46,381 bases of DNA, from the NCBI GenBank assembly GCA_017859815.1, contig JAFMMM010000008.1, positions 1-46,381 on the forward strand. The letters run 5' to 3'. The position numbers and the translations under genes are program-made. Shown piece after piece: positions 11,366-16,911 of this stretch (positions are counted from its first letter, which is position 1; the number at the start of each line of letters is the position of its first letter). Under the pieces are notes generated by a model that had not been told where the DNA came from, made no database searches, and saw only the letters and a program-made list of their open reading frames with translations. Source of the stretch: Planctomycetota bacterium. GTDB lineage: Bacteria; Planctomycetota; Planctomycetia; Planctomycetales; Planctomycetaceae.

Positions 11366-12223
11366 ATGACTGTCGATCACGAATTACAGCAGACACATTG
11401 CGGATCACCCCACTCGTGTTGCCTCCTGCTCCTTCTGCTCGCAGTCACGCACATCGGCTGTCAGGCGACTCCACGCACAACCTTCTCCACCTCTCCTCCT
11501 GATCGTCATCTGTTCAGCGGAGATGGGTTCGCCATTCACAGCGACGTCCCGCTGCGGCCGGATGACCCCATTGTCAAACAATTGGCTGAGACCCGATTGA
11601 CCGTAACCAACCGCTTAAAGCTCCAGGAACAGCGAGATCCAATCGACGTCTACCTGTTCAGTGATGAAGTCAGCTATCGCAACTTTCTCCGCGTCCGCTG
11701 GCCTGCACTGCCCTCCCGCCGAGCCTACTTCATGCAGACATCCAAACAGCTGGCTGTCTACTCATTCGTTAGTTCCCGAGTCCTTTCAGATCTGCGGCAC
11801 GAATTCACTCACGGAATTCTGCACGCGTCATGCTCCCACGTACCGCTGTGGCTTGATGAGGGACTGGCAGAATACTTTGAAACTGCCACTGACCTGGATA
11901 ACCGTCGCAGTCAGCAGCACCTCGATGAACTACTACTGGCCGAACAGGAAGGATGGAGCCCGGGAATGTTCCGCCTCGAAATGATCGCGGAATTCAGCGC
12001 GTTCTCAGCACGTGACTATGCCGAAGCGTGGGCATGGACTCACTTCCTCCTCAATGGCAGCCGGGAGGGTCAGGCAGTCCTGCTGAAATACATCGCGGAC
12101 CTGCGAGACGCGACGGTTGCCCCGGGATTTCTGCAACGGCTTGAGAAAGCTGTACCGACATACGCCGGAGATCTCTGGGACCACCTGCACAGTCTTCGTC
12201 GCGATTCGAATGCCGCTCTATGA
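11366..12223 (+). CDS. Zinc peptidase-like lipoprotein (DUF1570 type)
   Basis: The product has 285 residues. A hydrophobic segment (LLLLLLAVTHIGC, Cys32) is a probable signal peptide with an imperfect lipobox, so the protein is likely a lipoprotein or exported. The gluzincin zinc motif HEFTH is at 145-149, followed by WLDEGLAEYFE (162-172), where Glu165 is the expected third zinc ligand. This spacing and the 'DEGLAEY' block match the DUF1570 group of planctomycete peptidase-like proteins. The substrate is unknown. It lies 39 bp after the redoxin gene on the same strand, and the two may be co-transcribed. Confidence 0.82.
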   Translation: MTVDHELQQTHCGSPHSCCLLLLLLAVTHIGCQATPRTTFSTSPPDRHLFSGDGFAIHSDVPLRPDDPIVKQLAETRLTVTNRLKLQEQRDPIDVYLFSDEVSYRNFLRVRWPALPSRRAYFMQTSKQLAVYSFVSSRVLSDLRHEFTHGILHASCSHVPLWLDEGLAEYFETATDLDNRRSQQHLDELLLAEQEGWSPGMFRLEMIAEFSAFSARDYAEAWAWTHFLLNGSREGQAVLLKYIADLRDATVAPGFLQRLEKAVPTYAGDLWDHLHSLRRDSNAAL

Positions 12224-12227
12224 AATA

Positions 12228-12247
12228 CCGCCTGGAGTCTCAGGCGG
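12228..12247. terminator. Hairpin between convergent genes, possible bidirectional terminator
   Basis: A perfect 7-bp stem (CCGCCTG 12228-12234, CAGGCGG 12241-12247) with a six-base loop sits exactly between the stop of the DUF1570-like gene and the end of the convergent membrane-protein gene. Only weak T-richness follows on the minus strand (TATTTC). The location supports a terminator more than the sequence does. Confidence 0.4.
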
Positions 12248-13520
12248 CAGTCGTTGCTGCTTCCAGTTCTTCCCCGCCGCTGGCACCGGGAGACCTCACG
12301 CTGTCAGCCACGTCGCAGAACTGCAGCGATTGAGATCGCTGCGGAGGATCTGAATTGCGGTAGAGCACAAACCACGTATGCAGAAGACAGCCTGAGAGGA
12401 TCAGGCCGGATGTGAGTAGTTGCAGCACAGCAACAAAATCCGACTCCGCCTGCACATTTCCTCGCAGCGGTAACACAGCCAAAACCAGCCCCAGACCTAA
12501 ACCGATCGTCAACAGGATTTGCGAAGTGCGGAATCGCTGCATGTCCTTCGAGATTTTAAACAACGTACACAGGAAGACGGCACTTGCCGGCACAACCCAC
12601 AACGCATGACGTGATGCTGCAGGAGCTGAGCCGCCGACTCCAGTGGGCAACATGATCAACTGCTCGATGTCCGGCACCAGTGAACTCGAAAAAAAGAAGC
12701 CAACCGCAAACAACTGAGCGGAGAGCCACTTCCAGACGCGGTAATCCCCACGGAAATCGACCGTGCTGCAGGAACGAGCCACCGCGATAAGAAAGCATAA
12801 CTGTGCCGCAAAGCACAATTCGAAACTCACCAAAACCCGCAGCAACCGCTGTAGCGGTGAACCCGACTCCCGCAAAGAACCCAAACCGGTGTCCCAACCG
12901 GTGCCTGGCACCGAAACATCCTCCGAACCGATGTCCGCATTGGTGCCAGGCACTGAAATCCCGGGCTCCGAGGTGCCAGGTACGGTGTGACCAATCACGG
13001 CCCCGAGCCCTCCTGCGACTGCGGTGCCTGGCACCCGATCGCCACTGATCGTATCGGCACCCACCCAAGTGACGCGACGTGATCGATCATCATCCAAAAT
13101 TGCAGGAGCGGAGTAGACGGTGCCAGGCACTTTTTGAGAAAGCTGTAATCCGTCACCGGCGATCAACAGAGTTGCGACCTTTGGGCTCCTGGGACTGGTC
13201 GGCACTGACGGAAGGAGGGCCAGCGGCAGGAGAAGAAGTCCGCCGCAAACACAAGCATTCTTCCAAAGTCGGCGGGAAATCAGCCGGCGCAACACAAATA
13301 GCGAGACCAGCCGTATTGCGGCTCGCTCATCCTCTGTCCCGGAACAAGCATGCATTTGCTGAACTCGTTCCAGATGTCGCTGTTCGAAGGAAAGGCCTTC
13401 GCCAGAATCCGAGGATATGCAGACTTCACTGGATTGTTCATCGAGACAAGGCTGATCGACCAGCATCCGCCGCCTGCGGCCTTCTGCCCACCCAGCAAAC
13501 ATCTTAGAGGGACCATCCAT
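12240..13520 (-). CDS. Six-pass membrane protein with five in-frame VPGT repeats
   Basis: I do not recognise the family. From the ATG at 13520 it has 426 residues; a GTG at 13544 is an alternative start and neither has a strong ribosome binding site. About 85 cytoplasm-like residues precede a first hydrophobic segment (about 89-105, CGGLLLLPLALLPSV). A loop of about 120 residues follows, then five more hydrophobic segments (about 225-247, 267-283, 305-322, 333-352, 360-386) and a polar tail. The loop contains VPGT five times (residues 131, 163, 180, 190, 204). Each is encoded by a copy of a short palindrome that also belongs to repeats around the adjacent RAYT gene. The insertions appear tolerated because they fall in the loop between segments 1 and 2. 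Function is unknown. Confidence 0.6.
   Translation of the reverse strand: MDGPSKMFAGWAEGRRRRMLVDQPCLDEQSSEVCISSDSGEGLSFEQRHLERVQQMHACSGTEDERAAIRLVSLFVLRRLISRRLWKNACVCGGLLLLPLALLPSVPTSPRSPKVATLLIAGDGLQLSQKVPGTVYSAPAILDDDRSRRVTWVGADTISGDRVPGTAVAGGLGAVIGHTVPGTSEPGISVPGTNADIGSEDVSVPGTGWDTGLGSLRESGSPLQRLLRVLVSFELCFAAQLCFLIAVARSCSTVDFRGDYRVWKWLSAQLFAVGFFFSSSLVPDIEQLIMLPTGVGGSAPAASRHALWVVPASAVFLCTLFKISKDMQRFRTSQILLTIGLGLGLVLAVLPLRGNVQAESDFVAVLQLLTSGLILSGCLLHTWFVLYRNSDPPQRSQSLQFCDVADSVRSPGASGGEELEAATTAA
12901..13130. repeat. Five copies of palindrome GTGCC(A/T)GGCAC
   Basis: Copies lie at 12901-12911, 12943-12953, 12973-12983 (variant GTGCCAGGTAC), 13024-13034 and 13120-13130. The core is an 11-nt palindrome with a single central base, and four copies are exact apart from that base. 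Starts are 42, 30, 51 and 96 bp apart, all multiples of three, and each copy encodes VPGT in the membrane-protein frame. Because the core is palindromic it encodes V-P-G-T in either orientation. The last copy is followed on the plus strand by TTTTT. This size and symmetry resemble REP-type elements mobilised by RAYT proteins, and a RAYT gene lies about 600 bp away. Confidence 0.85.
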
Positions 13521-13754
13521 GGTCGCATTGGCCTTCGAGATCACTTCGCGCGATCGATATTGGATTCCGAGAGGATGTCATCCGTGGATGTTGTCAAGCA
13601 GAATCAACGACGTTGGTTTTTATCAGTCATTGCCGCAGACCCTGATTCAGTCAATATCACGCCTCTGAGGCTTACCAATAAATCTTTTCCGCGTAGCCGA
13701 TCCAATCGCTACAATCACTCGTAACCGAACTGGTTGCTATGGTCACAGACTGGT

Positions 13755-14789
13755 CTACGCCCCCCCCTTGTTAACTGCACCAATCCGGCGATGAACTGTC
13801 TTCATTGGCTTCTTTATGATGCGAGACGGGAGTTCTGCTGCAAAACGGAAGCTCTTTCGGAAGTTGCTCACAATCGCAATCCAGTGCTCACCCGGAATCG
13901 CGAGTCTTTCGATTATTGGCGGTACTGCACTCGAGATTCGCGATTTCCTGCCCCGATGGAGGTGTCGTCCAGACCAGTCGACCACCTCGAGGTAGGCAAC
14001 GAATTCGACCTCCAAAAAAGGCATTTTCGGCTTCGGGTTTTGCTCAGTCCAAAGTTGACATTTTTCCGGCTGAGGCGACCTGTCAAGAAAGGGAACCAGC
14101 CAGTCACAACCAGGTGCTCCTTGCCCCCTGTCTTTCGATCGTTTGCCTACGATTCGAATGCGTTCGCTGAGCCCTGTAAATTCACCAGTTTCTGGAGTAT
14201 CAGCAATACCTGCCCTTACTTCATTCAAATCGACGTAAACCATTGCCGCAATCAATGCAAACTGATCTTTCAATGGTCTGACATCGTATCGCCCCTCCCA
14301 AAAATGACCGGAGACATCGTCTTCTTTGTTGGCACGTCGGGCGACAGGTTCCGCCAGACATTTCATAAACCACGAGACTGATACGAGCCGGTCTCTAAGG
14401 ACATTCACCCGTTCAGCATCCGTGGCGATCGCGTTGATTTCCGCGGTATTTGGCGAATCGCGAGAGTCCCGTTTCATTGCAGCAGTTGGAAATAGGCTGA
14501 GCCAACGAGCGGCGATTTCCGTCTCAGTCCAGTTCGCTGCCTGATCAGGACAACTCAGGATCACAAGGTGGAAGTGATTACTGAGAATTGCATAAGTACA
14601 GATCTGAATCGAGAACGCCTCACAAAGCACCCTACAGCGATCTCGTATCCATTGCTTTCGATAGGTGTAGTCTCGTCCCCCGCCGGGCATCCGACCGCAT
14701 AACCGAGTTCTTCGAACACATCGATGGGTGATGAGAAACGCCTGTCGATCAGATCCACTGTAGATTTTGGAACGATTTACTCTCGGCAT
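13755..14789 (-). CDS. RAYT-type (REP-associated, Y1/HUH) transposase
   Basis: The product has 344 residues from the ATG at 14789, preferred over 14813 because GAGAGG lies six bases upstream. The Y1-transposase domain covers about residues 15-200. It has the metal-binding HUH motif NHFH (His72 and His74) in TYAILSNHFHLVI, then ARRANKEDDVSGHFWEGRYD and YVDLNEVRAGIAD, typical of IS200/RAYT-like single-domain proteins without flanking IS ends. These proteins act on short palindromic repeats, which are present on both sides of this gene. At the place where relatives usually show Tyr-Ala-Arg-Arg-Phe-Asn this protein reads Val-Ala-Arg-Arg-Ala-Asn (from Val149), so the usual catalytic Tyr is absent or lies elsewhere. 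The frame is intact, which points to a domesticated gene or a recent copy. Confidence 0.88.
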   Translation of the reverse strand: MPRVNRSKIYSGSDRQAFLITHRCVRRTRLCGRMPGGGRDYTYRKQWIRDRCRVLCEAFSIQICTYAILSNHFHLVILSCPDQAANWTETEIAARWLSLFPTAAMKRDSRDSPNTAEINAIATDAERVNVLRDRLVSVSWFMKCLAEPVARRANKEDDVSGHFWEGRYDVRPLKDQFALIAAMVYVDLNEVRAGIADTPETGEFTGLSERIRIVGKRSKDRGQGAPGCDWLVPFLDRSPQPEKCQLWTEQNPKPKMPFLEVEFVAYLEVVDWSGRHLHRGRKSRISSAVPPIIERLAIPGEHWIAIVSNFRKSFRFAAELPSRIIKKPMKTVHRRIGAVNKGGA

Positions 14790-15642
14790 GTTAAGCCTCT
14801 CGCGGGAATCCACATCAGAAACTAGTAATCAATCATCGTCACCCTTAATAAACGTTTTAACACCGCACCACAAACCCGCTCTTCTTCGGCGTTTTTTTTC
14901 TGAACTGCAGATGAAAATGACAGTCGGTTGCATGCTTTCACCACGCGCGTTGATTTGCCACAACACGACGGTTCTCGGGCTTCTGCATTGCATACTGAGT
15001 AAACTCGTGGACGCGTTGGCAGATCCACGCTCAATATCAGCCGAGACCCACATGCCAAGATGGGGAATTCTTCGGAATACCTGCGCGGCCCCCTGCGTGC
15101 AGGAAATCGCATCAAGTCGTGACGACTCCTCGCAGCAACGCGGATCTCCCCCGCGATAGCTGCGATAACGTGTCTGGTACCCAGGAATGTTTCTGGTACC
15201 TGCGCATGTCAGGAAAATTGTGGAAGGCTATTCGTTCAGCAGCTTCCAATTCAGAACGCCACACCAAAGCCGTGGTTGCCACCCGCGTTACTCCGCGGGG
15301 CTCCCCCCGGCCTGTTGCCACCGCCGCCTGCACGGTCACATTTCGATCTTTCGATGGCACGGTGTTCAGCGACAGGGATGTGCCCGCATGACCGGATTTC
15401 CATTCCAACACATCCGCCGACCAGAGTACGCAGTGTTCCGCTACGGCCGGAGTGTTCTGTTACGAACCGTGCGAGGGCCAAAACGAGGCAGCTGCGACTG
15501 GATCGCGAACATGCTGAGACTTCGACGGAACACGCGACAGAGATCTCCCAGTCAACACACTGTGGAATGCGGCCTTGCCTGCATCACTCGGATCGCTTCT
15601 CGTCCCCGTCTTTGCTCCTTCCGGTCGACAGAAAGAGGAGAA
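14790..15642. other. About 850 bp without a convincing gene, beside the RAYT gene
   Basis: No recognisable protein, tRNA or rRNA was found between the RAYT start and the end of proA. An open minus-strand frame spans about 15112-15459 but offers only a GTG start (15411) and matches nothing I recognise. Two related palindromes lie inside it at 15170-15199. A T-run occurs near 14894 without a good stem before it. The region may be decayed sequence or RAYT-linked non-coding DNA. Confidence 0.5.
15170..15199. repeat. Two tandem GTxTCTGGTAC palindrome variants
   Basis: GTGTCTGGTAC (15170-15180) and GTTTCTGGTAC (15189-15199) are separated by eight bases. The first differs from the 12.9-13.1 kb repeat GTGCCTGGCAC at two positions, and both changes keep base pairing as G-T wobbles, which suggests a related folded element. 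It sits about 380 bp upstream of the RAYT start, so repeats occur on both sides of that gene. Confidence 0.55.
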
Positions 15643-16911
15643 TCAGCCTCGAGTTTGGCCCGTCCCTCGCAACACATACTTGTAGGTGGTGAGCTCCTGC
15701 AGGCCGCATGGCCCGCGTGCATGAAATCGATCCGTACTGATCCCGATTTCAGCTCCCAGTCCCAGTTCACCTCCGTCATTGAACCGTGTGCTGGCATTCA
15801 CGACGACGGCCGAGGAATCCACCAGGGTTTCGAAGGCTTCCGCTGCCGCAAAACTCTGCGTGACGATTGCATCTGTGTGAGCCGATCCAAATTCTCGAAT
15901 GTGCTGCACAGCCTGCTCCAGCGAATCCACTACTTTCACATTAAGAATCAAAGCGAGGTGCTCAGTTGAGTAGTCTTCTGCCGTCGCCGCCACTGCCCCG
16001 GGTGCCAAAGCAAGGCTGTCTTGACAGCACCGCAGTTCGACCTTGTGATGTTGCAGAGCCACGGCGACTTCCGGCCAGACTCGATCCAAAGCCGCCCGAT
16101 GAATCAGCAGCGATTCCGCTGCATTGCAAACGCCGGGCCGTTGGCACTTGCTGTTGACGACAATTTCTTTCGCCATTTGAACATCTGCAGATTCATCAAT
16201 GAAAACGTGGCAGATTCCGTCGTAGTGTCGAATGACCGGCATTGTCGCCTCCCGACAAACGCGTTCGATCAGTGACTTGCCGCCCCGAGGAATCGTCACG
16301 TCGATCAGGTCGCCACAGGACAGGAATTCTCCAACTAATGCCCTGTCGGGAAACTCAACGAGTTGAACAGCATGTTCGGGTAATCCTTCCGTCCTGAGGG
16401 CCTCCTGCAGAATCTCTCCGAGCGCAAGATTGCTGTGTAACGCCTCCCGGCCACCGCGAAGGATGACGCTGTTCCCGCTCTTGATGCAGAGAGCAGCGGC
16501 ATCAATCGTAACATTCGGACGCGACTCAAAGATGAAGAACACAACACCCAGTGGAACTCGCACGCGATTTACCTGAAGACCATTTGGCCTTCGCCCACCG
16601 CTGATCACCTCTCCTACCGGATCCGGCAGTGCACAGATCTGTCTCACTGCTGCGGCGAGCGATTCAATTCGCTGCTGACACAGTCGCAGGCGATCCAACA
16701 TCGCCGGGGAAAGCCCGCTGTTCTCCCCCGCAATCAGGTCCAGTTGATTTGCCTGGAGAATGGAATCCTGTCTTTCAAGCAACAGGGCCGCGACCTGTTC
16801 AAGCCAGGCATTCTTCTGGCTGCCGGTCAGCGATGGCAACTGCTGGGCAGCATTTCGCGATTGCCCCGCGATCTTTTTTGCGTACCCGGGGTCTGGAATG
16901 CAATCGGCCAT
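15643..16911 (-). CDS. proA: Gamma-glutamyl phosphate reductase
   Basis: The product has 422 residues, the usual length. ProA reduces gamma-glutamyl phosphate to glutamate semialdehyde with NADPH in cytoplasmic proline synthesis. The aldehyde-dehydrogenase-like signatures are clear: [44 protein letters not shown], and the catalytic block [13 protein letters not shown] with Cys262 as the expected nucleophile. The C-terminal [19 protein letters not shown] and [10 protein letters not shown] blocks are intact. No proB is visible in the window. The ATG at 16911 starts close to the family N-terminus. It is transcribed away from the nuo operon. Confidence 0.97.

Follow-up and report, generated by a model that had tools for sequence, protein, structure and literature searches.

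A gene for a membrane protein of unknown function in the window, that is, in the whole 46,381-nt stretch analysed here, carries within 230 bp five sites of the palindrome GTGCCWGGCAC, all of them read in frame as Val-Pro-Gly-Thr (VPGT) and lying in a loop that is longer than that of any aligned orthologue. The explanation given the greatest weight, with a probability of about 70%, is that the five sites are RAYT-type REP palindromes which gained entry to a tolerant loop and increased in number there, the reading frame being kept by selection.

Palindromes within the window gene

The sites, the gene that hosts them and the loop in which they lie are as follows.

12240..13544, minus strand: membrane protein of unknown function, host of the repeats, 434 aa as listed
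12837..13190, minus strand: expanded loop that joins hydrophobic segments 1 and 2, approximately residues 119-236
12901..12911: palindrome copy 1, GTGCCTGGCAC, VPGT at residue 212
12943..12953: palindrome copy 2, GTGCCAGGCAC, VPGT at residue 198
12973..12983: palindrome copy 3, GTGCCAGGTAC, VPGT at residue 188, its one mismatch leaving the amino acid unchanged
13024..13034: palindrome copy 4, GTGCCTGGCAC, VPGT at residue 171
13120..13130: palindrome copy 5, GTGCCAGGCAC, VPGT at residue 139

The earlier note counted five palindrome copies between 12901 and 13130; there are indeed five sites, of which four are exact and the one at 12973 is a near copy. Its spacings of 42, 30, 51 and 96 and its Val-Pro-Gly-Thr at every copy were confirmed, since ORF 12240-13544(-) contains all five copies in phase 0. 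Val is encoded on the sense strand by GTG or GTA, Pro by CCT or CCA (CCW), Gly by GGC and Thr by ACC, and the central base is A in two copies and T in three. That insertion in either orientation gives the same peptide, as the note also held, is true for phase 0 by the genetic code: the sole ambiguous base, the A/T centre, is the third position of the proline codon, so that phase 0 alone is orientation-blind, whereas phases 1 and 2 read AWH/ARH and CLA/CQA, differing by orientation.

That this pattern arose by chance, or from normal codon usage in a loop of low complexity, is hardly credible, because the density and the codon identity of the copies both go far beyond chance. Matches with at most one mismatch number 8 in the window against 1.3 expected, a value reached in none of 100 shuffles, and four exact copies within 230 bp have a Poisson probability of ~6e-15. 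Given the codon usage of the window's other genes, the spelling GTG CCW GGC AC has a probability of 0.039 per VPGT, and the codon test gives p ~1e-5 for the core spelling in at least four of five, which places the repetition at the DNA level. What can be said for chance is that the divisibility of the window spacings by three, taken alone, is weak evidence: 39% of 202 cluster spacings, mostly from non-coding background, are divisible by three, and against this background the 4/4 in the window gives only p ~0.02.

The copies have only the core of 11-14 nt in common, and no repeat longer than ~14 nt connects them. Their flanks gave no significant match (p 0.09-0.63) to the flank profile of the REPs of relatives, built from 55 sites, which means that the unit is the core only or that the flanks have diverged. 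A donor copy for the loop DNA was not found in the organism's own genome, where matches were short and weak only. These data bear on an unlikely alternative, that a single palindrome, acquired by the loop or formed within it, was multiplied there by slippage or unequal exchange without a transposase, the RAYT neighbour being coincidental. The short common part argues against it, as do the two A and three T centres on the sense strand, a mixture not easily obtained by simple tandem duplication.

Host protein and its expanded loop

The host protein, for which a simple gene caller sets the start at 13466 (408 aa), has no Pfam or NCBIfam match and is matched in 36 of the 99 genomes searched, its own genome counted. 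Its first loop is predicted to be extracytoplasmic, as hydropathy and the charge of an arginine-rich N-terminus suggest. W94 and R257, both invariant in an alignment of 14 sequences, are 163 residues apart here but 60-85 apart in the 13 orthologues, so that the palindrome-bearing loop is 78-103 residues longer. The closest relative is G002, whose orthologue, the nearest available, is ~50% identical over the matched part. The same VPGT repeats with divergent codons in orthologues, which the earlier note regarded as a sign of ordinary protein evolution, were looked for, and VPGT is absent from all 29 homologues extracted.

Selection for the VPGT tetrapeptide itself, for example as a turn-rich spacer or a binding motif of the loop, is accordingly improbable. 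The predicted exposure of the loop and the constant phase 0 in the window are in its favour, but VPGT is missing from every homologue extracted, and selection on the peptide alone would not be expected to make the codons nearly identical, as they are here.

The neighbouring RAYT gene and synteny

The genes used to describe the neighbourhood are listed below.

11366..12223, plus strand: DUF1570 protein, a conserved neighbour by which synteny was judged
13755..14813, minus strand: RAYT-like Y1/HUH transposase gene, 352 aa, full length, with the motifs NHFH and YVDLN
15643..16911, minus strand: aldehyde-dehydrogenase family gene (labelled ProA), the next gene in G002

The adjoining RAYT gene claimed in the earlier note is thus present, ~210 bp upstream of the host ORF on the same strand. 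Both an HUH motif and the region of the catalytic tyrosine are found in its product, the profile scores of which lie below the curated cut-offs (NF047646, E 1.9e-5, 24.6 bits vs 80; Pfam Y1_Tnp, 19.5 vs 23); a PDB sequence search gave no match. In a RAYT tree the window sequence forms a long branch, and the tree was left unused because its place there is unsure. No palindrome stands at either end of this RAYT gene, the nearest lying within the adjoining gene ~625 bp downstream, and for this reason the link to the window RAYT rests on neighbourhood and homology. The same absence is a point in favour of local duplication.

In G002 the same neighbours are found, but there is no RAYT gene between the host gene and the aldehyde-dehydrogenase family gene, and neither the palindromes nor the neighbouring RAYT occur in this relative. 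Around the orthologues, 12 neighbourhoods, some of them short, were retrieved, and none contains a RAYT match. Together with the loop lengths, this makes both the loop expansion and the adjoining RAYT peculiar to the genome of the window within the set examined, and a RAYT gene that adjoins the host gene only here, among the neighbourhoods fetched, speaks against its being a coincidental neighbour of locally duplicated repeats.

The palindrome in the own genome and in the genus

The genome-wide count proposed in the earlier note was made by pattern searches and gave 15 exact copies in the organism's own genome (5.63 Mb, 560 contigs) against 2 for the reversed control. Ten of the 15 were called non-coding, four lie in the window gene and one is coding in another phase, so that VPGT-coding copies occur in the window gene only; the calls here, as for the relatives and the public loci, come from a simple, unvalidated codon-usage gene caller written for this work, which overlooked at least one long open frame. 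The presence of four of the 15 exact copies in one gene, with none of the other 11 coding VPGT, is again what local duplication would predict.

Many of the copies outside the window gene are within ~300 bp of contig ends, and they stand in intergenic mosaics with GGTGCCACCCACC- and GGTGCCATCCACC-like repeats. At five loci (L007, L009, L012, L013 and L014) mosaics of GGTGCCACCCACC, GGTGCCATCCACC and GGTGCCTGGCACCCAATTCGGCC were seen between genes near contig ends.

Within the genus the copy number of the palindrome is lineage specific: 45 in G009, 42 in G003, 31 in G001 and 12 in G016, with 0-7 in the other genomes. Matches to the window RAYT number 64, 35, 44 and 15 in the same four genomes, but RAYT counts do not always follow those of the palindrome, as G006 has 26 RAYT matches vs 4 palindromes and G004 has 14 vs 4. 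At 13 of 30 RAYT loci of the genus, GTGCCWGGCAC or its one-base variant GTGCCATGCAC is located 63-90 nt upstream, several of these loci also having an inverted copy downstream, which ties this type of palindrome to this RAYT family. In G009, G003 and G001, each with tens of RAYT matches per genome (e.g., at L103, L116 and L118), several RAYT matches have palindromes at like distances on both sides, and this suggests that the RAYT gene itself is mobile in these lineages.

The sites are non-coding in 26 of 28 cases in G009 and in 30 of 31 in G003, while 73-83% of that DNA was called coding. With 56 of 59 sites non-coding in these two relatives, the suggestion of the earlier note that the repeats are selected to enter genes harmlessly finds no support in the genus as a general rule. 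Its reading of the site stands in part: the copies are palindromes repeated at the DNA level, they belong to a kind that is associated with RAYT genes in the genus, and they lie in frame in a loop predicted to be extracytoplasmic, but the window RAYT itself is not flanked by them. As is usual for REPs, the palindrome is repeated above chance in the own genome, in three relatives (31-45 copies) and in an acidobacterium described below; it is mostly extragenic in G009, G003 and the own genome, with the window copies as the exception; and the family is associated with RAYT genes at loci of the genus and of the acidobacterium.

In-frame arrays in an acidobacterium

When public genomes were scanned for pairs of palindromes separated by 16-45 bp, at least 117 stretches from many phyla were obtained, and 347 of the 369 sites among the matches listed are non-coding. 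Counts of reading phase over stop-to-stop ORFs of these loci were dropped since most such ORFs are spurious, and the gene caller was used instead. One short ORF with four phase-0 VPGT copies (L228 3788-4261) belongs to a low-coverage metagenome bin, and a longer tandem repeat encloses the copies.

Acidobacteriota bacterium OFTM328 contains 262 copies vs 3 for the control, and phase-0 VPGT arrays are found there in five unrelated genes, which encode a Y-family DNA polymerase, a methyltransferase, Cas6, an RND efflux adaptor and a giant Ig/RHS protein.

L395 5086-6057, L397 4439-5422, L398 3589-4905, L363 3187-4992 and L172 3-8000: unrelated genes of OFTM328 with in-frame VPGT arrays, those for Cas6 and the Y-family DNA polymerase among them

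The methyltransferase array divides a conserved domain: residues 56-99 correspond to positions 2-47 of the Methyltransf_25 profile, residues 147-195 to positions 46-94 of its sister model Methyltransf_11, and the VPGT array occupies the gap between these two matches. The palindrome cluster is absent from homologues of the giant Ig/RHS protein. A further open frame of 445 aa, with seven copies and no family match, was not called as a gene. Of the OFTM328 sites called coding, 29 of 38 are in phase 0, which would also be expected if the peptide were selected; against such selection are the unrelated enzymes that carry VPGT and a TPR-containing protein (L405 3335-6406) in which the same palindrome is read both as VPGT and as GAWH, so that other phases are tolerated too. 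Copies lie near 3 of the 12 RAYT loci of OFTM328.

In family-verified or caller-supported genes, the window gene included, 17 of 19 spacings are divisible by three (p ~7e-6 vs the 39% background); this count leaves out the 445-aa frame, with which it becomes 23 of 25. Arrays with a 33-nt period are found in OFTM328 and are common also outside its genes, which makes its own non-coding clusters the stricter control, and against these the excess in the OFTM328 genes has p ~0.01 only. The resemblance of the 33-nt arrays to tandem amplification is a further point on the side of local duplication.

Proposed origin of the expanded loop

The preferred explanation, entry of RAYT-type REP palindromes followed by their multiplication, would run as follows. 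A RAYT gene would have settled beside the host gene in this lineage, and palindromes would have entered the DNA of the first extracytoplasmic loop and multiplied there in a manner resembling the intergenic clusters found elsewhere, with their spacing of 20-60 bp. Selection would have removed any frame-breaking copy or local duplication, and those that kept the frame would have stayed because VPGT is small and turn-forming and phase 0 yields it either way round; the loop has grown by ~80-100 residues in this lineage. The association of palindromes with RAYT genes suggests that RAYT activity placed or multiplied the window copies, and the VPGT insert is probably merely tolerated by the host protein. 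Against this explanation are the bare ends of the window RAYT gene and its unsure place on a long branch, a shared core of only 11-13 nt, the uneven relation between RAYT and palindrome counts, the distance of the nearest orthologue (~50% identity) and the smaller spacing excess in the OFTM328 genes under the stricter control.

Comparison with known systems

RAYT/REP systems consist of Y1/HUH transposase genes associated with short dispersed palindromes (PMC2817692; TnpA-REP, PMC8266576). Unlike in these, some relatives have dozens of RAYT matches (64 in G009), and the window RAYT is without palindromes at its flanks. Di Nocera et al. (2013, PMC3733652) found REP palindromes inside ORFs, often as dimers or groups, and reported clusters encoding 43-82 residues in some species and repair genes among the intragenic targets; the present sites are alike in lying inside ORFs, and the Y-family polymerase of OFTM328 parallels the repair-gene targets. 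Those REPs have GTAG or CGTC ends, whereas GTGCCWGGCAC sites in the relatives, with the consensus AGGTGCCWGGCACCTG, have neither tag at their termini, and the window copies share a core of 11-13 nt only and always encode VPGT. GTGCC was not found in the main text of that paper. Rickettsia palindromic elements also occur in frame inside unrelated protein genes, to which they add a peptide (reviewed in PMC10969869), but they are ~150 bp long with a conserved peptide of their own; the window copies differ in both respects, being several per gene and adding four residues each.

In a literature search, the DNA string of the palindrome was found in 15 papers, most of which, judged from the title, concern human or mouse and are unrelated; none is on a repeat family, and VPGT was not found together with 'repeat' and 'bacteria'. 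Both in-frame REPs and in-frame palindromic elements were known before; the palindrome family, its hosts and the orientation-blind peptide look new.

Significance

REPs, which are usually intergenic, can also lengthen proteins, and VPGT provides a recognisable peptide signature that can be searched for directly. More tentatively, GTGCCWGGCAC REPs may be a mobile protein-decorating element in at least two phyla: phase-0 insertion would give the same VPGT in either orientation, and arrays whose period preserves the frame, such as the 33 nt of OFTM328, would let RAYT-driven amplification lengthen loops in many proteins with little damage. With several insertions in genes whose domains are known, OFTM328 makes it possible to test whether REP arrays within proteins do harm, bring a benefit or are neutral.
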